Below, piece after piece: positions 2,852 to 25,570 of a DNA stretch of 32,302 nt. The translations under genes were made by a program, and so were the position numbers. Every line of letters begins with the position of its first letter. Position 1 is the first letter of the stretch. The stretch is taken from the NCBI GenBank assembly GCA_013388645.1, contig JACAEV010000170.1, positions 1 through 32,302 of the forward strand, in the 5' to 3' direction. This DNA comes from Syntrophaceae bacterium. GTDB taxonomy: Bacteria; Desulfobacterota; BSN033; UBA1163. Below the pieces are notes generated by a model. That model had not been told where the DNA came from. It worked only from the letters and a program-made list of their open reading frames with translations, and did not search any database.

Positions 2852-3595
2852 TTATTTCTTCCCTTTCACTCCATCTCCGGTCATGGGGACAAAGACCACT
2901 GGGATCACGTCAGTCGTCTCGATCTTTCCCGATCGTTTGACAATTTTTTTTAACTCCTGCATATAAGTGCCCACCGGAACAACCATTCGTCCTCCCTCTT
3001 TTAGTTGTTCGATAAGGGGCTTTGGGATATGGTCAGGCGCCGCCGTGACGATGATGGCATCAAAAGGGGCTACTTCCGGCCAACCTAAATATCCATCCCC
3101 TGCTCTCACGTTGATATTCTGATATCCAAGCTGCCGAAGTCTTTTTTCCGCCGAAGAAGCAAGCGTTTCAATGATTTCGATGGAGTATACTTCTTTCGTT
3201 AATTCGGCCAAGATGGCTGCTTGATAGCCTGAGCCAGTCCCGATCTCTAAAACTTTTTCATCTCCTTTCAGTTCTAAAAGTTCTGTCATGAGGGCGACGA
3301 TATAGGGTTGAGAGATGGTTTGACCCTCTCCAATTGGAAGGGGTTGATCGGAATAGGCCGAGCTTAAATATTCATCAGGGACAAAAAGGTGTCGTTCGAC
3401 CTTACTCATCACAGAAAGGACACGAGGGTCTTTTACGCCTCTCGCTTTAATCTGGGTGTCGACCATCTTCTCGCGCATGGTTTTAAAATCCTCCTTCAGG
3501 GTTGACTCAGAACCCTTTTTCCCATTCGTGCATTGGAGGAGCACAAGGGTTAGGATAGTCAATACGACTACCCTGAAAATTGCTTTTTTATCCAT
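2852..3595 (-). CDS. pcm: Protein-L-isoaspartate O-methyltransferase with N-terminal hydrophobic export-like segment
   Basis: This 247-residue enzyme methylates L-isoaspartyl residues in damaged proteins using S-adenosylmethionine. The family motifs are clear: TISQP (93-97), SAM-binding motif I VLEIGTGSGY (115-124), the acidic end of motif II (SIEI), DAIIVTAA and GGRMVVPVG. ATG at 3595 is preferred over a GTG three codons upstream because GGGTGG lies about 6 bp before the ATG. Unlike the cytosolic enzymes of about 210 residues, it has about 38 extra N-terminal residues with a KK..R start, a hydrophobic run (residues 9-20) and Cys22. This resembles a signal peptide or lipoprotein signal, though Gln at -1 makes the lipobox poor. 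It is divergent from the TPR gene and convergent with the radical SAM remnant. The family call is strong; the location is uncertain. Confidence 0.9.
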   Translation of the reverse strand: MDKKAIFRVVVLTILTLVLLQCTNGKKGSESTLKEDFKTMREKMVDTQIKARGVKDPRVLSVMSKVERHLFVPDEYLSSAYSDQPLPIGEGQTISQPYIVALMTELLELKGDEKVLEIGTGSGYQAAILAELTKEVYSIEIIETLASSAEKRLRQLGYQNINVRAGDGYLGWPEVAPFDAIIVTAAPDHIPKPLIEQLKEGGRMVVPVGTYMQELKKIVKRSGKIETTDVIPVVFVPMTGDGVKGKK

Positions 3596-3626
3596 GATCA
3601 CCACCCTATCACAGTTGTAAAAATCC

Positions 3627-3663: not shown

Positions 3664-3682
3664 TTTTTAAAAAGGGTTGAAT

Positions 3683-6600
3683 ATGTTTCACTTTTTCCTA
3701 AAAGTGTTGAGTCTTTTTCTTTTGATTTCGATCACCGTCTCTTTCCCTGTTTTTCAAAGCCAGGGGCAATATCCACCTCAGACGGGTTCTTCCGAAGTCA
3801 CCTTTTTTGGAAAGGAGGAGACAAAATGGATTGAGAAGAGGGAGGTGCCTCTTCCTATCATCATAGGGCAGGGAATCAAAGAAGAGCCTCGCATGGACTC
3901 TTTCTATCTGGACGAGGACTCGATCGGTCCCACGAAGAAAATGAGCGCCACGACGGCAAAGCCAGGTTGTGCCTATTCCAGTCGGTTCACTTCGGGTTTG
4001 GCAAAGACGTTTGTAGGAGATAAAGCCCTCTACGAGAAAGGTCGATATCAATATTTTAAAGGGTCTTATGAAGATGCCATCGCCTCTTTCCAAAAATTGA
4101 TTCAAGACTACCCACAAAGTGAATGGGCGGGTCCGTCCTATTACTGGATGGGGGAAGCCAGATATCACCAGGAAAAGGAGGGAGAGGCGTTTCTTCATTT
4201 CCATCAGGTCATCGAAAAATATCCTAAGAGTGAATTCTATGATTATTCTCTTTACTCCTGTGGCTGGATTAAACTTAAACAGGGGGCCTATGAAGAGGGC
4301 CATCGTTTTTTTCATCAGGCTCATGAAAAAACATCCACTCATCCCATCGCCGAGTCCTCTCTCTTCTGGTCCGGGTATTGCCTTTATCAATTGGGTCGCT
4401 ATTCGGAGACCCTTCCAGAAATGGAGCGTCTCCTTCAACAATACCCAAATGGGAAGTGGAGGCCAGAAGCTGAATACCTGATCGGGGTCAGCATCTTTCG
4501 ACTGAAACGATATCAAGAGGCAGCCGATCTCTTTAAAAACTTCTGGAGACGTTATCCCAAGCACCCCTTGGAAGAAAGCACCCGTTATGCCTTAGGTTGG
4601 AGTTTACTCTCCCTCGGACAATATGCCGAAGGGAGAAAGACATTTGAGGACATCCTCCTGACCTACCCTGGGACCAGACTCTCCGATCCCATTTTCTGGG
4701 GTATTGTGAAAACCTATCTGGGGACGGACGAGGTGGAGAGAGCGGTGCTTCTCTATCAGAGATTTCTTTCCCAATTTCTCTCCTCCCCATGGTTGGAGCA
4801 AACTCTCTTTGACATCGGGCAATATTATTTCATGAAAAAAGACTATTCCAGTGCTGCCACCACCTTTCGTCAATTTCTGTGGACCTACCTCGAGAGCGAC
4901 CTTCGGGAGAGGGTCTACTTCATGTTAGGAGAAAGCCTATTCAATCAAAAAGATTATCCAGGCGCAATTGCGGCTTATCATCAAGTCTTAGAGGAGAAGG
5001 GAAGGACAAAACTTGAACCTGAAGTTTTTTCAAAATTGGGTTACGCCCATTTCTATTTAAAAAATTATGAAGTGGCGATCCAGTTTTGGGACCGACTCCT
5101 GGTGGATTTCCCACAGTTCGAAAAAAGAAATGAGATTCTTTATTGGGCGGTAGAGGCATCACTTTTGAAAGCGGATTATCGGAAAGGGGTTGGATATGTC
5201 GACAAGTTGAAGGAAGATCCCATCCTCTATCCCAAAGGGCTGAATAGTTTGGGATGGTATCATTTTCAGAGGAGGGAGTGGAAGGAGGCCAACCAGTATT
5301 TTTTGAAGATCCTTTCAGAATTTCCTCATTATCGTTCCTCTCCCTCCCTTTTTCTTTTAATTGGGGAGTGCTATTTAAATCAGAATGAATATTCGAAGGC
5401 CAAACTCTATCTTACGCGATCGACTTCGATGAAGGAAGGAAATGGAGACAGGGAGAAGGCCACCTATCTGCTTGGGTGGGTCGCTTATCGAGAGGAACGA
5501 TTTGGAGATGCGATCACTCAATTCCAAACCCTCTTGGAATTGAACCCCTTCAGTTCCTATCGTGATGAATCTCAGTATTGGATTGGTTGGTCTTTTTTCC
5601 GGAAGAAAGAGTTCCAAAAGGCCATTGAGGAATTTCAGCATCTCGTCCAGCGGTACCCAGAAAGCCCTTATGTCCCGTCAGCGCTCTTGAAGATCGGGGA
5701 CGGGCATTATAATCTCAAACGATATGCCACTGCCATCCCATCCTATTCCCATGTCGTCAAAGCCTATCCGAAATCGAAAGAAGCGCCCGAGGCTGATTTT
5801 GGCATTCTCCTTTGTTTATTTCATGAAAAAAAATATGACGCCTTTGTTTCCCAGGTAGAAACTTTTTTGAAGCGATACCCACAACACGTGTTGGCTAGCC
5901 AAGCCCTGATGCAGTTGGGGGATTACTATCAAAAGGAACGATTGAAGGAGAAGGCGGTCAAAACCTTTCGAGAGCTCATCAACCTTTATCCCCAGAGCGA
6001 GTGGGCCGAGGAAGCTCAGTTCCATATTGCTCGTCTCTTCATCCAGGATCGAAGATGGAACGAAGCCGTGGAGGAGATGGATAAAGCCATTCGACAATAT
6101 CCCAAGAGTCGTTTTTTACCCGAAGCCCATGTCGAGCTGGGAGATCTTTTTCTCCTCCTCAAGGATTACCCCAAAGCGCTTGAACGTTATGAGTGGGTCA
6201 TCAAGAACCATCCTCAACATCCATCCATCAAAAGGGTCTATTTTGGAATGGAGGAGGCTTATCGAAACTGGGGGAAGATGGATCAGGTTGAGAGGATTCT
6301 GAAAGAGCTCATCCATCATTTCCCTCAGGACCCCGTTCAGTTCGAAGGCCAACTGAGGTTGGGGCATCTTTACCTTGCCCAGAAGAAGTTTGGGGAGGCC
6401 GTCGCTGCATTGTCCATGGCCGTGCGAAGTCCTGAAGAAAGGGTAGCCAGTCAGGCCCAATTCAAATTGGGAGAGGCTTACATCGAAGCTGGAAATCGAG
6501 AATCGGCCCTTCTCCAATTTTCAAATGTGGTCTATCTTTACCCTCATCATGTTGACCTCGTGGAAGAAGCCCTTCTGAAATTGGGAGCTCTTTATCTGGA

Positions 6601-6724
6601 AGAGAAGAAATTTTCTGAAGCCACTCAGGTCTATCGTAAATTGTTGGAGAAAAGTAAAAGGGAAGATCGAAGAGAGATAGCCAAAAAAATGCTCGCTCAG
6701 ATCAGTCAGGAGAATATTCGTTGA
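3683..6724 (+). CDS. Large exported TPR-repeat protein
   Basis: This is 1,013 residues from the ATG at 3683, chosen because AAGGG ends 6 bp upstream; a TTG two codons earlier lies too close to that site. Residues 1-28 form a signal peptide (MFHFFLKVLSLFLLISITVS, then FPVFQSQGQ). After a low-complexity segment to about residue 112, the rest is a solenoid of some two dozen tetratricopeptide-like units. They follow the CpoB/YbgF/BamD style: Y-x-x-A-x-x-x-F-x-x-h-x-x-x-Y-P-x-S, for example YEDAIASFQKLIQDYPQS and FQKAIEEFQHLVQRYPES. Such proteins are periplasmic scaffolds for envelope machines. It overlaps the TonB-like gene by 4 bp (TTGA), so the two products are probably made in ratio and work together. 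The partner complex is unknown. Confidence 0.85.
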   Translation: MFHFFLKVLSLFLLISITVSFPVFQSQGQYPPQTGSSEVTFFGKEETKWIEKREVPLPIIIGQGIKEEPRMDSFYLDEDSIGPTKKMSATTAKPGCAYSSRFTSGLAKTFVGDKALYEKGRYQYFKGSYEDAIASFQKLIQDYPQSEWAGPSYYWMGEARYHQEKEGEAFLHFHQVIEKYPKSEFYDYSLYSCGWIKLKQGAYEEGHRFFHQAHEKTSTHPIAESSLFWSGYCLYQLGRYSETLPEMERLLQQYPNGKWRPEAEYLIGVSIFRLKRYQEAADLFKNFWRRYPKHPLEESTRYALGWSLLSLGQYAEGRKTFEDILLTYPGTRLSDPIFWGIVKTYLGTDEVERAVLLYQRFLSQFLSSPWLEQTLFDIGQYYFMKKDYSSAATTFRQFLWTYLESDLRERVYFMLGESLFNQKDYPGAIAAYHQVLEEKGRTKLEPEVFSKLGYAHFYLKNYEVAIQFWDRLLVDFPQFEKRNEILYWAVEASLLKADYRKGVGYVDKLKEDPILYPKGLNSLGWYHFQRREWKEANQYFLKILSEFPHYRSSPSLFLLIGECYLNQNEYSKAKLYLTRSTSMKEGNGDREKATYLLGWVAYREERFGDAITQFQTLLELNPFSSYRDESQYWIGWSFFRKKEFQKAIEEFQHLVQRYPESPYVPSALLKIGDGHYNLKRYATAIPSYSHVVKAYPKSKEAPEADFGILLCLFHEKKYDAFVSQVETFLKRYPQHVLASQALMQLGDYYQKERLKEKAVKTFRELINLYPQSEWAEEAQFHIARLFIQDRRWNEAVEEMDKAIRQYPKSRFLPEAHVELGDLFLLLKDYPKALERYEWVIKNHPQHPSIKRVYFGMEEAYRNWGKMDQVERILKELIHHFPQDPVQFEGQLRLGHLYLAQKKFGEAVAALSMAVRSPEERVASQAQFKLGEAYIEAGNRESALLQFSNVVYLYPHHVDLVEEALLKLGALYLEEKKFSEATQVYRKLLEKSKREDRREIAKKMLAQISQENIR

Positions 6725-7548
6725 CCCCCAAAAGATCAGCCCATAGCAAAAAATGGTCACTTTTCCTGCTCTTTCTTTTTCTGTTCCTGACCGGTCTTTT
6801 CTTGTGGATTTTTTTCTTTGTCCCCGCCTTTCCCACTCGTTTAGAGGAGGCTTGGAGAGCTCTGACTCAAGAAAGCAAAAGGATTTTGGGATGGAAAGAG
6901 GGGGAGGTCCCTCCAGAGGAAAAACGGATCAGGGAGGAAGTCATTTTTAAAAAGATGAAGGAGGCGAGTTCGCATCAGGATTGGAGGACCCTCGCACCGG
7001 AGTATCCTCGACCAGCGAAAAAAGAATCGCGAACTGCCGAAGAGAAGATGAAAGCCTTCAAGAGCACCCCAGAATTTAAAGAGATCGATCGGGAGTTGAA
7101 AGCCTATCTCAAAAAGAAGGAGGACCTTTTCTATCCGGAACCGCCTGCCCCATCTTTCAAAGATGCAACCGATTTCATTCCGATGAAGAACAAAGGGGCG
7201 GAAAAGGTCATTGAGAGATTGCAGAGTGCAAAAGAAGGAGACGTTCAGGAAAAACCTCTGGAGGAGAACCTTCGATTAGGGATCAAGGGACCTCTTCTGA
7301 CGCGGAGAATCTTGGAAAGACCTAATCCACCTCAAATCAAAGTGAAAGTGGAGGCAGAGATTGAATTGATGCTTTGGGTGTTACCCAACGGGACGGTGGA
7401 TCGTGTCGTCCCTTCGGTCAAGGGAGATGCGGAATTGGAGAGGATCTCGATTCAATACTTAAAACAATGGCGATTTGCACCCCTGCCCAAAGAGCAACCA
7501 CAGGTTGAACAATGGGGGTCCATTCCCATTAAATTTAAACTGCAATAG
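6721..7548 (+). CDS. TonB C-terminal domain protein (energy-transducer type)
   Basis: This is 275 residues starting at TTG 6721, which overlaps the TPR stop codon (TTGA). AGGAGA (6708-6713) lies 7 bp upstream, and no better start exists before the membrane segment. Residues 12-36 form one transmembrane helix after a basic KRSAHSKK leader. A charged, Lys/Glu-rich periplasmic spacer runs to about 200. Residues about 200-275 form a TonB_C domain: VKVEAEIELMLWVLPNGTVD, a central GDAELE, QYLKQWRFAPLP, then the IPIKFKL terminal strand. TonB family proteins pass proton-motive-force energy to outer-membrane partners. The usual Pro-Lys/Pro-Glu spacer is replaced by a plain charged one, and no ExbB/ExbD lies nearby. 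A structural role alongside the TPR protein is as likely as transport. Confidence 0.75.
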   Translation: MTPKRSAHSKKWSLFLLFLFLFLTGLFLWIFFFVPAFPTRLEEAWRALTQESKRILGWKEGEVPPEEKRIREEVIFKKMKEASSHQDWRTLAPEYPRPAKKESRTAEEKMKAFKSTPEFKEIDRELKAYLKKKEDLFYPEPPAPSFKDATDFIPMKNKGAEKVIERLQSAKEGDVQEKPLEENLRLGIKGPLLTRRILERPNPPQIKVKVEAEIELMLWVLPNGTVDRVVPSVKGDAELERISIQYLKQWRFAPLPKEQPQVEQWGSIPIKFKLQ

Positions 7549-7627: not shown

Positions 7628-7915
7628 GTGAGAAAGAAACGTCTTCTCCTTTTCATTTTTATTCCCCTTTTGATTTTTGGAGCCCTTACCTTCTTTGGAG
7701 AAAAAGGGATGCTTCAACTCTATCGCCTCAAGAAAGAGATCACCCAGATCAAGGAGAGAAATATAAAACTGGAGGAAGAGAATCAGAAGTTGAGGGAAGA
7801 GGTGAAACGGTTACAAAGGGATAAACGTTATATCGAAGAAATTGCCCGAAAGGAGCTGGGCATGGTGAAAGAGGGAGAGATCATTTATCAATTCGATGAC
7901 CAAAAAACCAAATAG
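7628..7915 (+). CDS. ftsB: FtsB/DivIC-type septum formation initiator
   Basis: This 95-residue bitopic protein is the right size for FtsB (about 90-105). A short basic cytoplasmic tail (RKKR) is followed by one membrane helix (about 5-23). A strong heptad coiled coil (about 33-68, IKERNIKLEEENQKLREEV) comes next, then the family signature RDKRYIEEIARKELGMVKEGE, close to the consensus Y-x-E-x-x-A-R-x-x-L-x-M-V-x-x-G-E. FtsB joins FtsL and FtsQ to activate septal peptidoglycan synthesis. The start is GTG at 7628, with a GTGGGG ribosome-site-like stretch (7614-7620) upstream. It stands 79 bp after the TonB-like gene and ends just before the phased palindrome. Confidence 0.85.
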   Translation: MRKKRLLLFIFIPLLIFGALTFFGEKGMLQLYRLKKEITQIKERNIKLEEENQKLREEVKRLQRDKRYIEEIARKELGMVKEGEIIYQFDDQKTK

Positions 7916-7999: not shown

Positions 8000-8869
8000 A
8001 TGAAATACGAGGGAATGATCTTCCGCCCTCCGAGCGAAGCAGACAGCCTGATCCTCCAAGTCACCGTCGGTTGTTCTTACAACCGATGCACTTTTTGCGG
8101 AGCCTACCAGGGGAAGCGGTTCCGAATGAAACGTTTTGAAGAGATCAAAGAGGATATCGATGAGGTGAGTTCTTACAAGATCCGAAGAGTTTTTTTGGCG
8201 GATGGGGATGCCCTGATCATTCCCCAGGAAGAACTCATTCGAATCCTATCCTATTTAAAGGCCAATTTAAGAGGGCTTGAAAGGATAGGGATTTATGCCA
8301 ATGCAAAAGATATCCTTCGAAAAGAGGTGAAAGAGTTGAGAGCCCTGAAAGACCTGGGATTGGGGATCCTCTATTTAGGGTTGGAGTCAGGAGATCCGGA
8401 GGTACTGAAACGAATTAAGAAGAATGCAACAGTTGACCAGTTGATCCGAGCTGGCAAAAGGGTGAAGGAATCGGGGATTCTTCTTTCGGTGACGGTGATT
8501 TTAGGTTTGGGAGGCGTGGAGGGGAGTCAACCGCATGCTATTGAGACTGGAAAAGTCCTTTCGGAGATGGACCCTGACTATGTTGGCGCTCTTTCTCTCA
8601 TGATCGTTCCAGGAACACCCATTGAAAGGGAAATAGAGACAGGCGAGTTGGTTTTGCCGACTCCTTTCGGTCTGATTCAAGAATTGGAATGGATGATCAC
8701 CCATAGCCATTTCACCCATTGTTTTTTTGCTTCTAATCACGCTTCCAATTACCTTCCTCTCCGGATTCGATTGCCGGAGCAAAAGGAAGAGGCCCTTCAG
8801 CGCATTCGGGAGGTCCTGCGAAGAAAAGATCCCGCATTGCTTAGGCCCGAATATTTGAGAGCGCTATGA
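8000..8869 (+). CDS. Radical SAM enzyme, function unassigned
   Basis: This is 289 residues. The [4Fe-4S] cluster motif is near the N-terminus: Cys25, Cys30 and Cys33 in VTVGCSYNRCTFC, a C-x4-C-x2-C spacing rather than the classic C-x3-C-x2-C, which I associate with a conserved uncharacterised radical SAM group. Further core features are LADGDAL (about 68-74), YANAKD, GLGILYLGLESGDPEVL (the SAM-contacting Gly-Glu strand, about 127-143) and SVTVILGLGG. No B12-binding domain and no extra C-terminal Cys cluster are present. AAAAAGGAG precedes the ATG. Neighbours (ftsB, thioesterase) do not point to a substrate, and I assign none. Confidence 0.8.
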   Translation: MKYEGMIFRPPSEADSLILQVTVGCSYNRCTFCGAYQGKRFRMKRFEEIKEDIDEVSSYKIRRVFLADGDALIIPQEELIRILSYLKANLRGLERIGIYANAKDILRKEVKELRALKDLGLGILYLGLESGDPEVLKRIKKNATVDQLIRAGKRVKESGILLSVTVILGLGGVEGSQPHAIETGKVLSEMDPDYVGALSLMIVPGTPIEREIETGELVLPTPFGLIQELEWMITHSHFTHCFFASNHASNYLPLRIRLPEQKEEALQRIREVLRRKDPALLRPEYLRAL

Positions 8870-8936: not shown

Positions 8937-9341
8937 ATGGCGAGAGACATTGTGGATGTAGAAATTCGGGTTCGATATGCCGAAACGGATCAGATGGGCG
9001 TGGCTTATTATGCGAATTATCTTGTATGGTTTGAAGTGGGGCGTTCTGAATTCTGTCGAAAAAAAGGATTCCGTTATACTGATTTAGAGGCAATAGGGTA
9101 TAGACTGGTTGTCAGCGATGTCTCTTGCCGATATCGGAATTCTGCCCGATATGATGAAATCGTTATTGTTCGAACGTGGCTGAAGGGAGTGAATAAAAGA
9201 ATGATCACCTTTGGATATCAGATTCTTCATAAAGAGGGAGAAGGGGTGATCGCCGACGGAGAAACCCGACACATCTGTGTCGATTCAAATGGTAAAACAA
9301 AGAGCCTTCCCGATAAATTTCTTCTTTGCCTCACCGGGTGA
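8937..9341 (+). CDS. ybgC: YbgC/FadM-type acyl-CoA thioesterase (hotdog fold)
   Basis: This is 134 residues, the normal length for a single 4HBT hotdog domain. The active-site stretch RVRYAETDQMGVAYYANYL (residues 11-29) has the catalytic Asp18 and the G-V-x-Y-x-A-N-Y loop; the helix FEVGR follows. C-terminal strands include ADGETRHICVDSNGK. The family hydrolyses acyl-CoA or acyl-ACP thioesters in the cytoplasm. In proteobacteria ybgC often accompanies the Tol-Pal genes, and the TonB-like and TPR genes upstream echo that setting. However, tolQ/R/A/B and pal are absent here. GGAAGGGG lies about 5 bp before the ATG at 8937. Confidence 0.85.
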   Translation: MARDIVDVEIRVRYAETDQMGVAYYANYLVWFEVGRSEFCRKKGFRYTDLEAIGYRLVVSDVSCRYRNSARYDEIVIVRTWLKGVNKRMITFGYQILHKEGEGVIADGETRHICVDSNGKTKSLPDKFLLCLTG

Positions 9342-10582: not shown

Positions 10583-11644
10583 GTGGATGTTTTGAAAGGC
10601 GATTTTAAACAAATCAATCGTATATTGGTGAGGGGAGTCAATTGGGTAGGGGATACAATCCTCACCTACCCAACAGTACAACAATTAAAGACTCTCTTCC
10701 CCCAATCCCATTTGGCTATCCTCGTTCCAAGATATCTCACCGATTTATGGAAAACATTTCCTTCTGTTGATGAGATTATTCCCTTCCAAAAGAAGAAGGG
10801 GATCAAATCCCTTTGGGAGGACTTGAACCTCAGTCAATCTTTAAAGGAGAGGCATTTTGACCTCGCGGTCATCCTTCCACGGTCTTTCCGGTCTGCACTC
10901 CATATCTACCTTGCTCAAATTCCAGTTCGAATGGGTTATAGAGATGAAGGACGTTCCCTCCTTCTTACCCATCGAATCCATCGAACCCGAGAGATTTTTA
11001 ATGTCCACCGAATCCATTATTATTACAGATTGCTTGAGCCATTCGGAAAGATAGAAGATCCTCCTTCGCCCAAGATTTTTCTCAGAGAGGAAGATCGAAA
11101 ATGGGCAATTCAGGCACTGGCGGAATTGGGAGTTCCAGGCGGGAAGCCCCTGATTGGCATGAATCCCGGGGCAACCTATGGATTGGCGAAATGCTGGCAT
11201 CCTGAACGATTCGGCGAATTAGGAAGGCGGCTTGCGGAGCAATGGCAAACGAACATTCTTTTGTTTGGGAAGGAGGACGAGCAACCCATCATCCATGAGA
11301 TTCGAAGATATTTAGGGACCAAAGGTATTGATTTGGCAGGGAAAACCAGTCTTCTCCAATTAGCTGCCCTTCTGGAGCGATGTGCTCTTCTTGTGACAAA
11401 TGATACAGGCACGATGCATGTTGCGGCAGCAGTGGGCACACCTGTGGTCGCACTCTTCGGGTCAACGCCCCCCCATATGACTGGACCATGGGGAGATCAT
11501 CATGCGGTGGTCAAAAAGGATGTGGAATGCAGTCCTTGCTGGAAAAGAATATGTCCAACCGATCATCGGTGCATGGAACTCATTACCGTCGATGAGGTTG
11601 AGGAGATTGTTAATAAGAAATTGAAAGACCTCAATAATAAATGA
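10583..11644 (+). CDS. waaF: GT9 ADP-heptose:LPS heptosyltransferase II, WaaF-like
   Basis: This is 353 residues. RILVRGVNWVGDTILTYPTV (residues 13-32) is the WaaF signature N-G/W-x-G-D. LAVILPRSFRSALHIYLAQI, GMNPGATYGLAKCWHPERFGELGRRL and the donor site NDTGTMHVAAAVGTPVVALFGSTPP all fit WaaF closely. The tail CSPCWKRICPTDHRCME matches the cysteine-rich end of the preceding GT9, and such tails recur in this family. The enzyme adds the second heptose to the inner core. The GTG start at 10583 lacks a clear ribosome site, so a start a few codons later (TTG at 10592) is possible. Adjacent waaC-like and waaF-like genes form the inner-core module. Confidence 0.88.
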   Translation: MDVLKGDFKQINRILVRGVNWVGDTILTYPTVQQLKTLFPQSHLAILVPRYLTDLWKTFPSVDEIIPFQKKKGIKSLWEDLNLSQSLKERHFDLAVILPRSFRSALHIYLAQIPVRMGYRDEGRSLLLTHRIHRTREIFNVHRIHYYYRLLEPFGKIEDPPSPKIFLREEDRKWAIQALAELGVPGGKPLIGMNPGATYGLAKCWHPERFGELGRRLAEQWQTNILLFGKEDEQPIIHEIRRYLGTKGIDLAGKTSLLQLAALLERCALLVTNDTGTMHVAAAVGTPVVALFGSTPPHMTGPWGDHHAVVKKDVECSPCWKRICPTDHRCMELITVDEVEEIVNKKLKDLNNK

Positions 11645-11684
11645 TGAACAACAAACGATGAACTAAGAACGATGAACGAAAAAC
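11643..11684 (+). repeat. Heptanucleotide repeat array (six 7-bp units)
   Basis: GATGAAC occurs at 11643, 11657 and 11671, alternating with variant units AACAAAC, TAAGAAC and GAAAAAC. All six units end in AAC and are in exact 7-bp phase. The array covers the end of waaF and the start codon (11672) of the following GT2 gene. Confidence 0.6.
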
Positions 11685-12472
11685 AAGGGATGATTGAAAA
11701 AATTCCAGTTTCCGTATATGTTCTCACCACCGATAATCGGAGGACGATTGAACGGTGTCTGAGGAGTCTCACTTGGGCTAAAGAATTGGTCATCGTTGAC
11801 TCTTTCAGTCAGGATGGAACGTATGAGATCTGTCGACAGTATACGGATAAGCTTTATCAGAGAAAGTGGACAGACCATCGTGATCAATATCAATATGCCG
11901 CTGACCTCACTACCCAGGATTGGGTTATGTTTGTTGACGCCGATGAAGAAATTCCCCCTGAATTGGTCGAAGAGATTCGAAGAGAGATCGAAGGAGGAGG
12001 AAAAGAGGTGAATGGTTACTTTGTTTATCGGCGCACCTATTATTTAGGGAGATGGATTCAATACGGAGGATGGTACCCAGATGGTGAGATTCGCCTCTAC
12101 CGGAAAAATAAAGGGAGATGGGAAGGGGGACTCCATGCTAAGTTGGTGGTGGAGGGGGCCATCGGTGTTTTAAAAAATCAATATCTCCATTATACCTATG
12201 GAAATATTTCAGATCAGATTCAGACCATTGATCGATATTCGAGTATTGCTGCGGCAGACCTTTACGAAAGCGGAGAAAAATTTAGTCTCTTCAAGCTCCT
12301 CTTTCATCCTCTTTTCCGATTTTTCAAGGAGTACCTGTGGAAGTCAGGGTTTCGGGATGGATTGCCCGGTCTCATCATTATCGTCTCGACCATGTTTTAT
12401 GTCTTCATCAAATACGCCAAACGATGGGAGTTGACGATTTCAAAGGAGGAGAAAAAGGATGGCACCTCGTGA
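11672..12472 (+). CDS. GT2 glycosyltransferase, WaaE/KdtX-like LPS core enzyme
   Basis: This is 266 residues. The GT2 A-fold is clear: VSVYVLTTDNRRTIERCLRS, WAKELVIVDSFSQDGTYEI, then DWVMFVDADEEIPPEL with the metal-binding DAD at 89-91. ELVIVDSFSQDGT and DADEE(I/R) are hallmarks of the WaaE (beta-1,4-glucosyl to heptose I) group, and its place next to waaC/waaF fits inner-core decoration. The C-terminus holds a hydrophobic stretch (about 229-250) that may sit on the membrane. ATG 11672 lies inside a 7-bp repeat without a good ribosome site; a second ATG (11690) directly follows AAGGG, so the start may be 6 codons later. The end overlaps the epimerase by 14 bp. Confidence 0.8.
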   Translation: MNEKQGMIEKIPVSVYVLTTDNRRTIERCLRSLTWAKELVIVDSFSQDGTYEICRQYTDKLYQRKWTDHRDQYQYAADLTTQDWVMFVDADEEIPPELVEEIRREIEGGGKEVNGYFVYRRTYYLGRWIQYGGWYPDGEIRLYRKNKGRWEGGLHAKLVVEGAIGVLKNQYLHYTYGNISDQIQTIDRYSSIAAADLYESGEKFSLFKLLFHPLFRFFKEYLWKSGFRDGLPGLIIIVSTMFYVFIKYAKRWELTISKEEKKDGTS

Positions 12473-13451
12473 AGAGGTTTTTAAAGGAAAAAAAGTGTTA
12501 GTGACAGGTGGATTGGGATTTATCGGGTCCAATCTTGCTGCTCGGTTGGTGGCGTTGGGGGCCGAGGTTTTCCTCGTGGACAGCCTGATTCCGGAGTACG
12601 GTGGAAATTTATTTAATATTACCGGCATCGAACAAAAGGTTCGGGTCAATATCTCAGACGTCCGGGATGAACACAGCATGCGTTATTTGATTCAGGGGCA
12701 GAATTATCTGTTTAATCTCGCGGGTCAAACGAGTCATATTGATTCGATGCAAGATCCCTATACCGATCTGGAAATCAATAGTAAGGCCCAGCTTTACATC
12801 TTAGAATCCTGTCGGAAGTATAATCCAAAGATTAAGATCATCTTCGCAAGCACCCGTCAGATTTATGGCAGACCGGAATATCTTCCTGTAGACGAAAAAC
12901 ACCCCCTTCGTCCGGTCGATGTGAATGGGATCAACAAAATGGCGGGAGAGTGTTATGCCCTTCTTTACCACCAAGTGTACGGAATACGAGCCTGCGCGCT
13001 TCGTCTCACCAACACCTATGGGCCGCACATGCGAGTCAAGGATGCGCGGCAAACCTTTTTGGGAGTCTGGATTCGGCTTCTTGTTGAGAACAAACCGTTT
13101 GAAGTTTGGGATGGGGATCAGCTCCGTGACTTTACTTATGTGGATGATGCCGTAGAGGCTCTTTTGATGGTGGCCCAAAGCGGCAAAGCCGATGGTCAAA
13201 TATTCAATCTCGGCGGCGATTCTGTGATCAGCCTGAAGGATCTTGCAGACTTGCTGATCAAGGTCAACGGAGGAGGACGCCGTCTCATTCGCTCCTTTCC
13301 ACCTGATCGCAAGCGCATCGATATCGGTGATTATTACGCGGACTTTAGTCGTATCCGGTCTCTTTTGGGCTGGGAGCCAAAAATCCGCCTTCGCGAGGGG
13401 CTGTTGAAGACGCTCACTTTCTATCGCAAAAACCTTAAGCATTACCTTTAA
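12459..13451 (+). CDS. NAD-dependent sugar-nucleotide epimerase/dehydratase (extended SDR) lacking the usual Tyr
   Basis: This is 330 residues, typical for an extended SDR. The Rossmann motif VTGGLGFIGSN (15-25), NLAGQTSHIDS, FASTRQIYG (129-137) and LRLTNTYGP are present, and QLRDFTYVDDAVEALL ends the cofactor and substrate part. The active-site Y-x-x-x-K reads N-G-I-N-K, so the catalytic Tyr is replaced by Asn156 while Lys160 is kept. Ser131/Thr132 provide the usual hydroxyl position. From memory this VNGINK form recurs in a conserved subgroup found in glycan clusters, so the gene is probably intact and not decayed. The substrate is likely a UDP-, GDP- or CDP-sugar and the exact reaction is unknown. 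It overlaps the upstream GT2 and precedes the aminotransferase by 8 bp, fitting one operon. GAGGAGAAAAAGG precedes the ATG. Confidence 0.75.
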   Translation: MAPREEVFKGKKVLVTGGLGFIGSNLAARLVALGAEVFLVDSLIPEYGGNLFNITGIEQKVRVNISDVRDEHSMRYLIQGQNYLFNLAGQTSHIDSMQDPYTDLEINSKAQLYILESCRKYNPKIKIIFASTRQIYGRPEYLPVDEKHPLRPVDVNGINKMAGECYALLYHQVYGIRACALRLTNTYGPHMRVKDARQTFLGVWIRLLVENKPFEVWDGDQLRDFTYVDDAVEALLMVAQSGKADGQIFNLGGDSVISLKDLADLLIKVNGGGRRLIRSFPPDRKRIDIGDYYADFSRIRSLLGWEPKIRLREGLLKTLTFYRKNLKHYL

Positions 13452-13459
13452 GAGGTTCT

Positions 13460-14587
13460 ATGGATCTTGCTCTTTCCATCCCCCTGACCCATCCAAAAGC
13501 AAGCTATCTTGCCTGTAAGGAGGAAATCGATGCGGCCATCAAACGCGTCATGGAGAGCGGACGATATATCCTTGGACAGGAGGTAAAAGCCTTTGAACAA
13601 GAGTTTGCCGCTTACATCGGGGTCCGATTTGGAATAGGCGTGGGCAGCGGTACAGAGGCTTTACATATCGCTTTACGGGCATGCGGGATTCAATCAGGTG
13701 ATGAGGTCATTACGGTATCCCACACTGCAGTGGCTACGGTTGCGGCCATCCAGTTAAGTGGTGCCCGACCGATCTTGATCGATATTGACCGCGACACCTT
13801 AGTGATGGACGTCAGTCAAATTGAACGGGCGATCACCCCACGGACAAAGGCCATCCTCCCCGTGCACCTTTATGGCAATGTGGTGGATATGAAGAGCCTT
13901 CGTTCGATTTCAGAAAGCCATGGATTGTGGGTGATCGAGGATTGTGCCCAATCGCATGGAGCCACTCATCAAGGGCAAAAAAGTGGGACATGGGGAAATA
14001 TCGCTGCCTTCAGTTTCTACCCAACAAAAAATCTCGGTGCCTTTGGAGATGGAGGAATGGTTTTGACCAATGATCCGGAACTCGATGAACGGGTTCGATT
14101 GCTTCGCGAGTATGGTTGGCGCCAACGATATATCAGTGAGATCTTGGGTTTGAATTCCCGATTGGATGAATTACAGGCGACCATTTTGAGAGTCAAGTTG
14201 AAACATCTGGATCAATGGAATGAGGAGAGGAGGAAAAAGGCAAAGATTTATACGGAGAGACTTACCTCTCTGGGAATAGTTTGTCCTTCAGAGAAAGCAG
14301 GAGCCCTACCGGTTTATCATCTCTATGTCATCCGGACAGAGAAGAGGGATGCTTTACAAATGTTTCTGAAGGCAAAGGGGATTGAAACACTCGTCCATTA
14401 TCCCATTCCCATCCATCTCCAAAATGCTTATAAGGGATTAGGATACCGGAAAGGGGATCTTCCCGTAACAGAACAGTGTGCCTCTGAGATCCTCTCACTT
14501 CCCCTTTTTCCAGAGTTGAAAGAGGATGAAATCGAGAGGGTCGTGGAGAGCATCCGATCTTTTATGAAAGCCGCCTCTATCAAATGA
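13460..14587 (+). CDS. DegT/DnrJ/EryC1/StrS-type PLP aminotransferase for nucleotide sugars
   Basis: This is 375 residues, full length. GVGSGTEALHIAL (60-72) binds the PLP phosphate. IEDCAQSHGA has the Asp (161) that contacts the pyridine nitrogen. SFYPTKNLGAFGDGG carries the PLP-linking Lys190. NSRLDELQA and HYPIPIH close the substrate pocket. The family transfers amino groups from glutamate to 3- or 4-keto sugar nucleotides. With the WbpB-WbpD fusion and the WbpI-like epimerase in the same operon, it could be the WbpE step (3-amination of UDP-3-keto-GlcNAcA). The sequence also resembles 3-aminotransferases acting on dTDP-sugars, so the substrate is not settled. The stop codon overlaps the next start by 4 bp (ATGA). 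Confidence 0.85.
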   Translation: MDLALSIPLTHPKASYLACKEEIDAAIKRVMESGRYILGQEVKAFEQEFAAYIGVRFGIGVGSGTEALHIALRACGIQSGDEVITVSHTAVATVAAIQLSGARPILIDIDRDTLVMDVSQIERAITPRTKAILPVHLYGNVVDMKSLRSISESHGLWVIEDCAQSHGATHQGQKSGTWGNIAAFSFYPTKNLGAFGDGGMVLTNDPELDERVRLLREYGWRQRYISEILGLNSRLDELQATILRVKLKHLDQWNEERRKKAKIYTERLTSLGIVCPSEKAGALPVYHLYVIRTEKRDALQMFLKAKGIETLVHYPIPIHLQNAYKGLGYRKGDLPVTEQCASEILSLPLFPELKEDEIERVVESIRSFMKAASIK

Positions 14588-15852
14588 TAGTGAATATAAC
14601 AAATGTCATCCCGGAATTATCTTCCCCCTCACCCCCTCCCTCTTCCCGTGAAAGAGAAGGGAAGGGCGAGGGGAGGAAAAAAATAACCTTTGCGATTGGT
14701 CTTTTGGACTTTTCTAAGAAGAAAGGCGGGGCAGAAAGATATTTGGTTGATCTATGTCGTCGGATGGTGGAAGAAGGCTATGAGGTCCATGTTTATACAG
14801 GACGTCGAGAGGAAGAAGATTTAGGGATTTATTTTCATCGTGTTAAAACCATTCCGTTTCCGAAAAGTCTCCAACTTCTCTCTTTTGCAAGCAGGGCGAC
14901 CCGGGCCATCGAAAAGGGTCATTATGATATCACCTTTGGAGTGGGCAATACATTAAGGGCGGATATTTTGCAGCCCCATGGAGGAGTTCATTGGGCGTGG
15001 TTTTGGCGAAGCCTCAGGGGTTATAGCCATCCATTTCTATGGCTAATAAAATTTTTGGGAAGGGTTTTCAGCTTGAAACAATGGGCCAGCGGGTGGATCC
15101 AGGATGCGCCCTACAAAAGGAGAAATTTTTCAAGGGTGATTGCGATTTCTGATATGGTCAAACAAGACTTGATGCGCTGGTACCAGATCCCTGAGGAAAG
15201 AATCACCGTCGTCTACAATGGTGTGGATATTGACCACTTTCATCCCCGAAATCGTCAATACCGAAATGAGATCAGAAAACGCCATGGCATTGGGGAAGAT
15301 GAATGGGTCATCCTCTTTGTCTCGAATAACTTTCGCATGAAAGGGCTGGCCTTTCTCATCAAGGCATTAGGGAAGGTCGAAACAGCCGCTTCCTCTCCTT
15401 TTAAACTTCTGGTGCTGGGAAGAGGTCATCAGGGTCCTTATTTGCGCATGGCCCAAAAAATGGGGATCTCAGGAAAATTGATCTTCGCCGGCTCCACCCC
15501 TGAGCCGGAAAAATATTATGGTGCCTCTGATTTTCTTATTCATCCTACTTTTTATGATGCCTGTTCATTGACGGTGTTAGAAGCCTTGGCAAGCGGACTG
15601 CCGGTCATCACCACCCATTCCAACGGGGCCGGCGGGATCATCACCCAGGGCCAAGAGGGATTTGTCCTCTCCGACCCTCGAGAGGTAGAGGTATTGGTTG
15701 AGAAAATTTTATTCTATTTGGACCGGAAGAGAATCGAGAGGGCCTCCATCGCCGCTCGCCATTTGGCAGAGTCCTATTCTTTCGAAAGAAATTGGGAGAA
15801 GATGAGAAATATTTTTCAAAATCATCGTTCCGGAGGAAAAAACGAGGGATGA
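14584..15852 (+). CDS. GT4-family glycosyltransferase, WaaG-like, with repeat-derived N-terminus
   Basis: This is 422 residues. The core starts at about residue 33 (KKITFAIGLLDFSKKKGGAERY, matching the G-G-A-E-R loop of WaaG/RfaG). QPHGGVHWAWFWR, VIAISDMVKQDL and VVYNGVDIDHFHP follow. The nucleotide-sugar site HPTFYDACSLTVLEALASGLPVITT has the E-x7-E-like arrangement. WaaG-type enzymes add glucose to heptose in the outer core. The first 30 residues (including PELSSPSPPPSSREREGKG) are encoded by a near-palindromic repeat and have no counterpart in the family. No in-frame start exists between that repeat and the core, so ATG 14584, coupled to the aminotransferase stop by ATGA, seems to be used. 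The end overlaps the acetyltransferase start by 4 bp. Confidence 0.82.
   Translation: MIVNITNVIPELSSPSPPPSSREREGKGEGRKKITFAIGLLDFSKKKGGAERYLVDLCRRMVEEGYEVHVYTGRREEEDLGIYFHRVKTIPFPKSLQLLSFASRATRAIEKGHYDITFGVGNTLRADILQPHGGVHWAWFWRSLRGYSHPFLWLIKFLGRVFSLKQWASGWIQDAPYKRRNFSRVIAISDMVKQDLMRWYQIPEERITVVYNGVDIDHFHPRNRQYRNEIRKRHGIGEDEWVILFVSNNFRMKGLAFLIKALGKVETAASSPFKLLVLGRGHQGPYLRMAQKMGISGKLIFAGSTPEPEKYYGASDFLIHPTFYDACSLTVLEALASGLPVITTHSNGAGGIITQGQEGFVLSDPREVEVLVEKILFYLDRKRIERASIAARHLAESYSFERNWEKMRNIFQNHRSGGKNEG
14622..14678. repeat. Near-palindromic pyrimidine/purine repeat inside the GT4 coding sequence
   Basis: The left arm (14622-14647) is almost pure pyrimidine, opening TTCCCCCTCACCCCCTCCC. The right arm (14654-14678) is its imperfect complement, purine-rich (GAGAAGGGAAGGGCGAGGGG). 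The arms are about 25 nt with a loop around GTGAAA. Its composition resembles common intergenic repeats of the CCCCTC...GAGGGG kind, and a smaller relative lies at 31947-31967. Confidence 0.6.
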
Positions 15853-16442
15853 AGAAAAAATGGTTTTGGTACCCGGTTGCGAATATCAAGAATCGGTTCC
15901 TTTTCGCCTCCTATGGAAGGGATGTCTATATTGAACCTGGAGTCGTGATCAACCGACCCCGTTTTGTCGAGGTGGGTAATTATGTTAGAATAAAGCGAAA
16001 TACGAGTATTAACCTTCACCCTCAGGACAAGAAATCAAAACAGGCCCTGCTCGTTCTCGGAGATCATGTGATTATCTCTGAAAGTTGTTTTATCAGCGCC
16101 TGTCATCGGATCGTCATTGAGGAAAATGTGGGGATTTCTCCCAACGTGATGATCATAGACAATTCACGGAAACCGGGAGATGTCAGTCGTCCCAGCAAAG
16201 AACAGGAGGTGGAGGTCGGTTATGTCCACATCGGAGCAGATTCCTGGATTGCTTACGGTGCTTGCATCTTGCCAAATGTGACGATTGGGAGACATTGTAT
16301 CATTGGAGCCCTTTCCGTCGTCAACCGTGACATCCCGCCTTATTCCGTTGCAGTGGGTGTTCCAGCAAAAGTGATTAAACAATACGATTTTGATAAAAAA
16401 CAATGGGTGAGAGTGGATGAGCCGAGAGATTTCCTGGAGTAA
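15849..16442 (+). CDS. Left-handed beta-helix O-acetyltransferase (LbetaH family)
   Basis: This is 197 residues from ATG 15849, which overlaps the preceding stop (ATGA) with GAGGAAAAAACGAGGG upstream. Hexapeptide repeats of the [LIV]-G-x-x-x-x type run from about 50 to 175, for example VVINRPRFVEVGNYVRI, IGADSWIAYGACILPNVTIG and HCIIGALSVVNRDIPPYSVAVG, ending in the family signature G-V-P-A-K-V-I. His84 in SACHR or the histidine in GRHCIIG could be catalytic. Such enzymes acetylate sugar hydroxyls or amines from acetyl-CoA. Being next to the WaaG-like and methyltransferase genes suggests decoration of the core or O-chain. The 3' end overlaps the methyltransferase start by 26 bp. Confidence 0.82.
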   Translation: MKKKWFWYPVANIKNRFLFASYGRDVYIEPGVVINRPRFVEVGNYVRIKRNTSINLHPQDKKSKQALLVLGDHVIISESCFISACHRIVIEENVGISPNVMIIDNSRKPGDVSRPSKEQEVEVGYVHIGADSWIAYGACILPNVTIGRHCIIGALSVVNRDIPPYSVAVGVPAKVIKQYDFDKKQWVRVDEPRDFLE

Positions 16443-17061
16443 GTTATTCGAATATCGGGGTCAGGTTCACCAGAGATATCGGGATATCTGGAATATTCCG
16501 ATCCTCCGGAAACGATTTCCTCTAATGTTAAGATGGATTCAAGATGGGGATAAAATTCTGGATATCGGAGCCTCAAATCGAGATCTTCAGGAACGGTTGA
16601 GACGCCATTTCCCCAAACTGATCTATAAAAGTATGGACATCGATCGCGAACAGTTTCATGACTTCTACACCCTGGAGGAAATTCAAGAACCCTTTGACGT
16701 CATTTTTTTATTTGAGGTCATCGAACACCTCAGTCTTGAAGAAGGGGTTACCCTGTTGAAGAGGGCTTATGATCTTCTCAACCAAGGGGGACGATTGCTT
16801 CTGACCACCCCCAATGTTTTCAATCCCAATCGTTTTTGGAGAGATGCGACACACAAAGTGGCCTATTGTTATGATGAATTGGGGGGCCTTCTCCTGGCAC
16901 AGGGGTTTCAGATTCAAGCGATCTACCGAACCTATAACGATGCTTACCACCGCTACCTTTTCAGACTTTATGTAATGGCTCCTCTCCATCGATACCTTGG
17001 CATTGACTTTGGCAAATCGATTTTGATGATCGCGGAGAAGAGGTCGAACGGGGAAAAATGA
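16417..17061 (+). CDS. Class I SAM-dependent methyltransferase
   Basis: This is 214 residues. ILDIGASNRDLQERL (motif I, about 47-61), SMDIDREQFHDF, FDVIFLFEVIEHLSLEEG (motif IV plus the E-V-I-E-H-L sequence typical of ubiE/coq3-like small-molecule and sugar methyltransferases), then GGRLLLTTPN (motif V/VI). An N-terminal helical part (1-45) and a C-terminal part with IYRTYNDAYHRYLF flank the fold. The substrate is unknown; in this operon it may O-methylate a sugar or cap a polysaccharide chain. ATG 16417 lies within the end of the acetyltransferase gene after GGGTGAGAGTGG. The stop overlaps the next gene by 4 bp (ATGA). Confidence 0.8.
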   Translation: MSREISWSKLFEYRGQVHQRYRDIWNIPILRKRFPLMLRWIQDGDKILDIGASNRDLQERLRRHFPKLIYKSMDIDREQFHDFYTLEEIQEPFDVIFLFEVIEHLSLEEGVTLLKRAYDLLNQGGRLLLTTPNVFNPNRFWRDATHKVAYCYDELGGLLLAQGFQIQAIYRTYNDAYHRYLFRLYVMAPLHRYLGIDFGKSILMIAEKRSNGEK

Positions 17062-18056
17062 AAATCATCTTCCTCACCCATTATAGTGATCAGGGGCATC
17101 GATTTCGGGTGGAGCAGTATTTCCCCTATCTCATCGCCCATCACGTCGAACCGAGGTGGCAACCTCTTTCTGGTTCATGGAGGAAACGACTCCTCCTCTA
17201 TCAGGAACTTCCCTCTTATGACGCCGTCTGCATTCAGAGGAGGTTGTTGTCTCCTCTCGAATTTTCTTGGGTTCGGAAAAAATCTTCGAAAGTCCTTTTT
17301 GATCTTGACGACGCTATCATGTATCGTTCCTCCAGCTCCCCTCATCCGCGTTCTCTGTCGAGGTTTCTAAAATTTTGGTGGATGGTGAGGGGAAGCGATG
17401 TGGTGACGGTGGGAAACCAGTTTTTAAAAAAGGAAGTCCTCCAGGTAGATCGATCGAAAAAGGTGTTTGTCATCCCGACCTCCATCGATACGGGTTTTTA
17501 TCCAAAAAAAAAGAGCCTTTCTAAAAACCCGGAGATCATTTTGGGGTGGATGGGGACAAAAGGAAATTTGAGGTATCTTAAAACATTGGAGCCTGTCTTT
17601 GAGACCCTCTATCAAAGGTTTCCTCAACTCAAATTGAAAATCGTGAGCGATGATTTTTACCATTCTCACCTTCCGACCATTCAAAAGCCTTGGAGATTGG
17701 AGGAAGAGAACGAGGATTTGATCTCTTTTGACATTGGCCTCATGCCCCTCAGCGATGACCTGTGGTCCAAGGGGAAATGCGGATTGAAGATGATTCAATA
17801 TCTGAGCGTCGGGGTGCCGGTCGTTTGTACCCCCGTGGGCATTAATTCAGACATCGTCAAAGATGGGGAAAATGGTTTTTGGGCTCAGAATCACCAAGAA
17901 TGGGTGGACCGTTTATCCACCCTGATTCAACATCCGGAACTCAGATCTCGAATGGGGTTAAAAGGGATCGAGTCGGTAGAAAAAGAGTATTCCCTGGCGG
18001 TGACTTCCGAAAAATTTTATAACGTTCTTCAACACCTTGGGCGGAAGGAAGGGTAG
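17058..18056 (+). CDS. GT4-type glycosyltransferase, first of a tandem paralogous pair
   Basis: This is 332 residues. The N-terminal Rossmann domain has KIIFLTHYSDQGHRFRVEQY and a conserved VLFDLDDAIMYR (80-90). The C-terminal domain has ILGWMGTKGNLRYL and FDIGLMPLSDDLWSKGKCGLK (about 224-244), then MIQYLSVGVPVVCTPVG. In this GT4 group K-C-G-L-K replaces the common E-x7-E phosphate-binding stretch. A short sugar-nucleotide specific region lies between. It is probably a cytoplasmic-face transferase extending the polysaccharide repeat. It starts by ATGA overlap and ends one base before its paralogue. Donor and linkage are unknown. Confidence 0.8.
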   Translation: MKIIFLTHYSDQGHRFRVEQYFPYLIAHHVEPRWQPLSGSWRKRLLLYQELPSYDAVCIQRRLLSPLEFSWVRKKSSKVLFDLDDAIMYRSSSSPHPRSLSRFLKFWWMVRGSDVVTVGNQFLKKEVLQVDRSKKVFVIPTSIDTGFYPKKKSLSKNPEIILGWMGTKGNLRYLKTLEPVFETLYQRFPQLKLKIVSDDFYHSHLPTIQKPWRLEEENEDLISFDIGLMPLSDDLWSKGKCGLKMIQYLSVGVPVVCTPVGINSDIVKDGENGFWAQNHQEWVDRLSTLIQHPELRSRMGLKGIESVEKEYSLAVTSEKFYNVLQHLGRKEG

Positions 18057-19073
18057 ATGAAAGTTTTATTTCTCATCCAGGGTTTTTCTGTTGCCGCCAG
18101 TCGGTATCGTGTGCTTCAATATGTACCCTATTTAGAGTCAAAAGGGGTCGAGGCAACCGTTCGCCTTTATCCCAGGACGTTTAAAGAAAATATCCAATTT
18201 TTTAACAGCCTCTCCCGATATGATCTTCTCTTCCTTCAGCGGAAGAGATTCAATCAACCGAGGCTGGGACTGCTGAGGCGAAGGGCAAAAAAGATCGTTT
18301 ACGATTTTGATGATGCCGTGATGTATCGAAACTCAAAGGCCAAAGAATCTGTTTCTCCTACTCGGAGAAGGCGTTTCATCCAGATGATCAAAAACTCCGA
18401 CTTCGTCATTGCCGGAAATGAATTTTTAAAGAAAGAGGTGTTTCCATTTAATCCAAATGTGGAGGTGATTCCCACAGCGATTGATGAAGAGAGTTATTCA
18501 TTAAAAACCTATCTTCCTCAACAGGAGAGGGTGATATTGGGATGGATCGGAGATCATGGCTCCATCCATTATTTAGAAAAAATGAAACCCATTTTTGAGA
18601 AGATTGGAAAGAGATATCCGCAGACGATATTGAAGATCGTCTGCGACACTTTTTTTGATTGCGATCACATGAAGGTGATCAAGAAGAATTGGAATTCGGA
18701 GGAGGAGGTGGCCGATCTTCAGGAGTTTGATATCGGACTGATGCCACTTGTGGATGACCCCTGGTCTTGGGGAAAGTGCGGCCTTAAAATTATTCAATAT
18801 CAGGGGGTGGGGGTGCCGGTCGTTTGTACCCCAGTGGGAGTCAATCGGGACCTGGTGGAGGACCACGTCAATGGGCTTTATGCCAGGACCCCAGAAGAGT
18901 GGGAGAGGACACTCTCCCTTCTCATCGAGAGTCCAGCATTACGTGAAAAAATGGGTCAGGAAGGGAGGAAGCGGGTTTTAAAGAACTATACCTTTCAATC
19001 CTGTGCTCCCCGTCTCTATTCCATTCTGGCCCAAGTGGCAGAGGGAGGAGGAAACCAGCCTCATGCTTTTTAA
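18057..19073 (+). CDS. GT4-type glycosyltransferase, second of the tandem pair
   Basis: This is 338 residues, clearly homologous to the preceding gene along its full length: RYRVLQYVPYL, VYDFDDAVMYR (81-91), NEFLKKEV, VIPTAID, ILGWIGDHGSIHYLEKM, FDIGLMPLVDDPWSWGKCGLK and VPVVCTPVGVN all align with it. The amino-terminal halves have diverged more than the donor-binding halves, as expected if the acceptors differ. It starts at the ATG directly after the upstream TAG (TAGATG), so translation is coupled. The end overlaps the MBOAT gene by 11 bp. It probably adds the next sugar in the chain. Confidence 0.8.
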   Translation: MKVLFLIQGFSVAASRYRVLQYVPYLESKGVEATVRLYPRTFKENIQFFNSLSRYDLLFLQRKRFNQPRLGLLRRRAKKIVYDFDDAVMYRNSKAKESVSPTRRRRFIQMIKNSDFVIAGNEFLKKEVFPFNPNVEVIPTAIDEESYSLKTYLPQQERVILGWIGDHGSIHYLEKMKPIFEKIGKRYPQTILKIVCDTFFDCDHMKVIKKNWNSEEEVADLQEFDIGLMPLVDDPWSWGKCGLKIIQYQGVGVPVVCTPVGVNRDLVEDHVNGLYARTPEEWERTLSLLIESPALREKMGQEGRKRVLKNYTFQSCAPRLYSILAQVAEGGGNQPHAF

Positions 19074-20526: not shown

Positions 20527-20537
20527 AGGGAGTGGCG

Positions 20538-21500: not shown

Positions 21501-21561
21501 CCCCGAAGGAAGAGGCGCTTCCTGCTGTTGGGGGAAATATTCGAGCCAGGGAGTCAGTCGC

Positions 21562-22170
21562 TTGAAATGGACCAGACGAATTAGATTGCTTCAAAGGAAG
21601 ATCAAACAGAGGCTGGGCTCCGGCTCGGATCAACTCATCTATACCAAGGACCTCCTGGGCGACCGATATTGTATTGGCGATCACACTTACGGAAAACCGA
21701 GGGTGATTGCCCGAGGTGAAGGAAAATCCCTTAGCATCGGAAAATATTGCTCCATTTCTACCCAGGTGCTCATTTTTCTTGGCAGTGAACATCGGACCGA
21801 TTGGGTCAGCACCTATCCTTTCCCCATTCTCTGGAAGGAGGCAGGTTCGATCAAAGGTCATCCTTCCTCCAAAGGGGATGTGAGCATTGGAAATGATGTG
21901 TACATTGGATACCATGTCATCATTCTCTCCGGAGTGACCATCGGAGATGGTGCGGTCATCGGCGCTGGATCTGTGGTGACCAAAGATGTCCCCCCCTATG
22001 CCATTATGGCTGGAAACCCTGCCACCATCATCCGGTATCGTTTTGATGAAGAGACGATTCGGAGACTTTTGGAAATAAAATGGTGGGACTGGCCTGATGA
22101 GAAGGTGAAGGAAAATATCCATCTGATCTGTGACGATAGGGTGGATGCGTTTATTAAAAAATTCAGCTAA
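21562..22170 (+). CDS. CatB/XAT-type hexapeptide acetyltransferase
   Basis: This is 202 residues with a TTG start at 21562, chosen because AGGGAG (21548-21553) lies 8 bp upstream and the protein begins naturally there. Left-handed beta-helix turns occupy about 40-160: [42 protein letters not shown] (the XAT-family loop with the catalytic His), then [24 protein letters not shown] and [25 protein letters not shown]. The tail with [16 protein letters not shown] is also typical of CatB-like sugar acetyltransferases. It probably acetylates a sugar of the repeat unit in the cytoplasm. A 61-bp gap separates it from the SGNH gene. Confidence 0.85.
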
Positions 22171-22221
22171 ACAGGTTGGGTCTTTTCATATCATTTGATG
22201 CACCGTAAGGTTCGATAATCC

Positions 22222-25556: not shown

Positions 25557-25570
25557 CTGGAGATGAAGAA

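Follow-up and report, generated by a model that had tools for sequence, protein, structure and literature searches.

TonB and TolA carry a Ser-His motif in their transmembrane helix by which they bind their motors (PMC12204202), and genes for tetratricopeptide repeat (TPR) proteins beside motors of the TolQR/ExbBD type are already on record. In the PVC group, TPR genes lie beside the TolQ/ExbB-type motors of vWA transducers (PMC12204202); in Myxococcus, the Glt set with AglRQS joins TPR proteins to a TolQ/ExbB-type motor and serves gliding (PMC3169522); and the Fibrobacter genes FSU_2397-2403 combine a TPR gene with an ExbB/ExbD-type motor (PMC6851124). In the available text of these papers all three systems keep the motor, and none is described as motor-less. 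Here we report on a window of 32,302 nucleotides from a Syntrophaceae bacterium (assembly GCA_013388645.1, contig JACAEV010000170.1, positions 1 to 32,302), which encodes a giant TPR protein and, overlapping its frame, a protein with a TonB-type C-terminal domain (TonB-C). In relatives, the genes of an ExbB-ExbD motor lie between the two; in the window's own family, the motor genes are gone from this place and TonB-C has lost the motor-binding motif.

The TonB-C protein has the topology of the transducers in TonB-ExbB-ExbD and TolA-TolQ-TolR, with an N-terminal helix, a periplasmic linker and a TonB-type C-terminal domain, and in its relatives the motor genes adjoin. The pair in the window's family differs in having no motor genes in the operon, no Ser-x-x-x-His and a linker that is not proline-rich. 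The vWA transducers, the Myxococcus Glt set and the Fibrobacter set, as presented in the available text, unite TPR proteins, a motor and a TonB-like or other transducer as the relatives of the pair do, although the C-terminal fold of the vWA transducers is of another type than that of TonB. The locus resembles Tol-Pal/CpoB in that a TPR protein and a ybgC-like gene occur near a TonB/TolA-type protein, with a division-type gene close by. However, none of tolQRA, tolB and pal is present in the window operon, TonB is a better match than TolA to the C-terminal domain of the TonB-C protein, and the TPR protein has about four times the length of CpoB; we rejected a CpoB orthologue on the score of NF008068 (198 bits against a cut-off of 383). 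The original prediction had held the pair to be distinct from Tol-Pal/CpoB, and this is upheld because the same genome carries tolA-tolB-pal-cpoB on a separate contig (C61; L106 1901-5608), without tolQR.

The TPR and TonB-C genes

The window's genome (G000) is a draft assembly of 250 contigs. We compared it with its own family (f1, 17 genomes), a class sample of 23 genomes and a phylum draw of 297 genomes; f2 and f3 are other families of the same class. The parts of the pair are:

3683..6724, + strand: giant secreted TPR protein with about 24 TPRs (Pfam TPR families, AlphaFold2, orthologues in 20 of the 23 class genomes)
3734..4012, + strand: disordered N-terminal tail of the TPR protein, residues 20-112 counted from the TTG at 3677 (predicted local distance difference test, pLDDT, below 50)
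6708..6712, + strand: AGGAG within the TPR gene, a possible ribosome-binding site for TonB-C (sequence, by inspection)
6721..7548, + strand: TonB-C protein, motor-less in f1 (PF03544 and TIGR01352 above cut-off; orthologue in 15 of 17 f1 genomes)
6739..6819, + strand: transmembrane helix without Ser-x-x-x-His, residues 7-33 (structure model; motif scoring)
7276..7545, + strand: TonB-type C-terminal domain, residues 186-275 (Foldseek matches 1u07, 6i97 and 2gsk; median dN/dS 0.09 in f1)

The TPR frame extends from a TTG at 3677 to 6724, with a likely start at the ATG at 3683. Pfam TPR_6 matches it with an E-value of 3e-85, and TIGR02795 scores 383.9 against a cut-off of 90.1, a score that comes from nine repeated stretches. 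The AlphaFold2 model (mean pLDDT 84) displays a signal-like helix, the disordered tail and, from residue 115, 49 helices amounting to about 24 TPRs, in agreement with the predicted protein of about 1,000 residues and two dozen TPRs, the coordinates of which were also right. Within the tail, residues P96, G97, C98 and Y100 are invariant in 10 of 10 aligned TPR proteins. Foldseek matches of the model were generic TPR scaffolds, uninformative on function, and were dropped as a guide to it. Homologues of the TPR protein occur in the metagenome-assembled genomes (MAGs) Syntrophaceae bacterium UBA2208, Deltaproteobacteria bacterium RBG_16_49_23 and Thermodesulfobacteriota bacterium Yes70-18.

The TonB-C protein reaches 31.4 bits with TonB_C PF03544 (cut-off 24.6) and 29.9 bits with TIGR01352 (cut-off 27.1), and the best PDB matches of its C-terminal fold are TonB C-terminal domains, ahead of TolA. 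It had been described as membrane-anchored and lacking a proline-rich spacer: the model has a single N-terminal helix, and no such spacer is visible in the sequence. Its TTG start overlaps the TPR stop as TTGA, as predicted. The distance from the TPR stop to the TonB start is -4 bases in 10 of 13 f1 loci (-1, 9 and 237 in the others) and likewise in the window, so that 11 of 14 f1 loci share the 4-base overlap. The original prediction set the protein apart from ordinary siderophore TonBs, and we also dismissed that identity: other TonBs of the genome fill the siderophore role, and its further TonB/TolA proteins sit at btu-like, siderophore and tol-pal loci.

The phylogenetic profile confirms the co-occurrence of the pair. 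Fifteen of the 17 f1 genomes contain the TonB orthologue, the same 15 contain the TPR gene, and the remaining two (G015 and G016, 88% and 87% complete) are without both. The two genes are gained and lost together, and the pair is not a product of chance because they are adjacent in all 15 f1 genomes that carry them. The same arrangement in 15 separate genomes also discounts an assembly artefact. In the class sample the TPR protein is matched in 20 of 23 genomes (E-value 1e-60 or better) and the TonB orthologue is found in 21 of 23; G021 has the TPR gene only as a contig-end fragment. In the phylum draw the TPR protein is matched in 32 of 297 genomes (E-value 1e-35 or better). A contig-end TPR fragment that is 64% identical to the window was found in another family (L225, G167 contig C386, 2-440) and reflects contamination or transfer.

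Motor genes and the motor-binding motif

In 19 loci from nine families of the phylum outside f1, the TPR and TonB genes flank those of ExbB and ExbD. These families are f2 and f3 in the class, and f10, f12, f14, f23, f44, f47 and f82 of the wider phylum. This motor-linked set comprises nine loci from a first retrieval and 10 of 18 from a later one, among them L214, where TonB is present as a fragment only, and L054, whose TPR gene is a fragment at a contig end. Loci L208, L215, L216, L222 and L225 were not counted since contig ends cut them; L213, in which the TPR gene is broken up and no motor gene was called, was not counted either, and L056, at a contig start and with the motif in its TonB, was left out. 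L223 and L224, retrieved for ExbBD, are without a TPR gene. In L224 (G044 contig C313, 1043-3652) ExbB and ExbD are followed by an FtsB-type gene with no recognised TPR or TonB gene, perhaps a variant of the operon.

None of the 15 f1 loci has motor genes between TPR and TonB, and a Pfam scan of 29 window proteins found no ExbBD. The prediction that no ExbBD is nearby is therefore true of the window but incomplete: because relatives have ExbB-ExbD between TPR and TonB, the absence is a loss in f1 and no primary feature of the system. It follows that the f1 protein is probably not an energised apparatus.

The motif, scored here as Ser-x-x-x-His in the transmembrane helix, is present in 19 of 19 motor-linked TonB orthologues and in 0 of 15 f1 TonB-C proteins (14 of 14 aligned proteins lack it, as does L040, which is outside the alignment and was judged separately). 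It is kept in all 21 other TonB/TolA proteins of f1 that were examined; the siderophore TonB of L092, missed by the script, is outside this number. The helix region also evolves fast. On average, residues 1-35 are 32% identical within f1, compared with 77% for the C-terminal domain and 79% for the family-specific residues 61-100. Over the pairs with dS below 2, the median ratio of nonsynonymous to synonymous substitution rates (dN/dS) comes to 0.45 in residues 1-35 (40 of 91 pairs), 0.09 in the C-terminal domain (26 of 91) and 0.14 in the whole protein (20 of 91). The anchor helix can drift freely; strong purifying selection acts on the C-terminal domain.

These values bear on whether the gene is a decaying relic, on its way to being lost after the motor. 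The fast helix region is what such decay might look like, but the frame is open in 15 of 15 f1 genomes, which together with the selection data also speaks against a pseudogene, and the low dN/dS of the protein and above all of its C-terminal domain, with the conservation of residues 61-100, largely refutes a relic; we regard it as barely credible.

A TonB-box-like strand in the TPR tail

In outgroup TPR proteins the tail contains a strand (LPEVVVVG, LPPVVITG, LPEVVITS and the like) some 60 residues ahead of the conserved PGCxY. The scoring profile was built from the TonB boxes of receptors encoded in f1 loci; three of these receptors were checked for plug and barrel domains. Against about 1000 windows per protein, the outgroup strand is the best in 14 of 21 proteins, second in three and not at the top in four (L052, L053, L208 and L216). 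L222, which has no anchor, and the window's own TPR protein were omitted from the scan. The segment of the window's protein that aligns with the strand is:

3791..3814, + strand: SEVTFFGK, aligned with the outgroup TonB-box-like strand (alignment)

The idea that the TPR protein is a client of TonB-C is supported, by these sequence comparisons, for several outgroup families; it is weaker for f1, where the strand has drifted.

Related clusters occur in other phyla. L137, L139, L142 and L144, from Calditrichota, KSB1, one unnamed bacterium and a MAG labelled Chlamydiae (L144), contain a giant TPR gene, a gene for a barrel-like protein of about 510-610 residues and ExbB-ExbD-TonB. In the Calditrichota and KSB1 loci the TPR domain begins soon after the signal peptide, and the barrel-like gene lies between TPR and ExbB-ExbD-TonB. 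Near its start the barrel-like protein has an LPEI-type stretch similar to the outgroup tail strand, which is not the best TonB-box window in most barrel-like proteins of other phyla; Pfam recognises a receptor-type barrel in L144 only. Loci of Omnitrophota, Poribacteria and Auribacterota (L146, L148-L150 and L152) have the order TPR-ExbB-ExbD.

A possible passive tether

We propose, at about an even chance, that a former pair of motor-driven transducer and client became a passive tether in f1. In the ancestor, a giant periplasmic TPR solenoid, an ExbB-ExbD motor and TonB would have carried out proton-driven force transduction, the TonB C-terminal domain capturing the TonB-box-like strand in the disordered TPR tail. 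In f1, the operon would have lost both motor genes, so that the TPR and TonB frames came to overlap as TTGA, and the TonB helix, having lost its Ser-x-x-x-His motor contact, would have drifted to a generic hydrophobic anchor. What is left would be a protein anchored in the inner membrane that holds the TPR solenoid through a strongly conserved binding domain, the two proteins presumably being made together by translational coupling from an operon with a division-type gene.

Several observations weigh against this account. The losses of motor and motif in f1 are one evolutionary event and not 15 independent ones, so that the two are associated once. The aligned tail segment is recognisable in f1 but scores as a TonB box in 0 of 14 proteins (the window's protein being unscored), and the strand of f3, which still has the motor, does so in 0 of 2, which leaves binding by the f1 tail hypothetical. 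Finally, an ExbD match exists elsewhere in 16 of 17 f1 genomes, and motor drive in trans is therefore possible. The f1 ExbBD genes that we inspected are sets of the siderophore type that have a TonB of their own, one odd set (G003) and one orphan ExbBD pair, which has no TonB beside it and is found in the window's genome (contig C72; L082 5693-6868) and in other f1 genomes.

This orphan pair might still energise the TPR and TonB-C proteins through a contact other than Ser-x-x-x-His, and the use of heterologous motors by TolA and TonB, reported in PMC12204202, lends the idea some weight. However, this TonB-C is the only one to have lost the motif; TolA and the other TonBs retain it and could be served by the orphan motor; the TonB-C helix drifts; and G011, a draft genome in which no ExbB or ExbD was found, keeps the TPR-TonB pair. 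We consider motor drive in trans unlikely. The tol genes of the f1 genomes inspected are arranged as tolA-tolB-pal-cpoB, next to groEL in most and without tolQR, and the orphan pair may well be the motor of TolA and the btu-like TonB, since both retain the motif. Relocation of the operon motor to the orphan pair is disfavoured, as joining the orphan with the operon motors of the class gave a p-value of 0.019 in the approximately unbiased test (p-AU). Joining it with the btu-type motors of f2 and f3 is also rejected (p-AU 0.021), and with both joinings rejected and the orphan pair on a long branch, the trees do not place it.

The silence of the f1 tails in the TonB-box scan is also consistent with the TPR and TonB-C proteins not binding each other at all, the C-terminal domain instead having a barrel of the outer membrane or peptidoglycan as its partner, with the TPR protein as a separate scaffold. 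The barrel gene between TPR and ExbB-ExbD-TonB in the Calditrichota and KSB1 loci fits such separate partners. Yet TPR and TonB are all that f1 keeps together, their frames overlap and G015 and G016 lack both, and we think separate partners decidedly unlikely.

If the tether account holds, the f1 pair is a natural experiment on the purpose of TonB, in which evolution has seemingly removed the pulling part and kept the holding part, and it predicts that TonB-type C-terminal domains can act as static tethers. It also suggests that, in the relatives, a Ton-type transducer has the TPR protein as a direct client. More tentatively, Desulfobacterota may possess a third machine of the Ton/Tol type, with a giant soluble TPR client that bears its own TonB box and a co-encoded division-type protein, which in f1 became a passive strut when it lost motor genes and motor contact but kept the domain that binds the client. 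We found no description of a TonB-type protein that is without motor genes and motif and keeps a TPR partner in the literature searched, which mostly lacked subscription journals and preprints.

Neighbouring genes

The genes that adjoin the pair are:

2852..3604, - strand: divergent PCMT gene, upstream neighbour (PF01135; divergent in relatives too)
7628..7915, + strand: FtsB/DivIC-type gene (PF04977, 87.5 bits, cut-off 28.9)
8000..8869, + strand: radical SAM gene (PF04055; linked in relatives)
8937..9341, + strand: YbgC/FadM-type thioesterase gene (TIGR00051, 100.6 bits, cut-off 68.7)

After TonB-C, the FtsB-type, radical SAM and ybgC-like thioesterase genes are followed by heptosyltransferases in an operon-like run. 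The ftsB and ybgC-like genes predicted downstream are thus there as DivIC/FtsB-type and YbgC/FadM-type genes; the FtsB-type gene does not reach the FtsB equivalog model NF002058 (65.6 bits against 101), and the thioesterase gene is under the cut-off of the ybgC model TIGR02799 (76.2 against 141.35). A second, weaker DivIC match is found on contig C193. The FtsB-type linkage is kept in several families: the gene comes after TonB in 14 of 15 f1 loci (the exception being L043) and in many motor-linked loci, though not directly in L053, L210 and L217. From the envelope-spanning apparatus possibly linked to division that was first proposed, the pair and the gene order stand, and in f1 an energised machine is improbable. 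Gene order with the FtsB-type gene is what hints at a role in division, where the tether might be linked to the septum or to the coordination of the outer membrane.

Further genes of the window were noted in passing. Two overlapping frames of 237 and 393 amino acids at 344-2210 have no Pfam match. A long surface-polysaccharide cluster extends over 10583-28292, with genes for glycosyltransferases, epimerases, an aminotransferase, hexapeptide transferases, MBOAT, Gfo/Idh/MocA and UDP-GlcNAc 2-epimerase, and contains an IS200-like gene of the Y1 transposase family at 24868-25542. On the minus strand, 28336-31874 encodes an EF-Tu-type GTPase, a PAPS-reductase-family protein and a type I phosphodiesterase, which together resemble a sulfate-activation (CysN/CysD-like) set.

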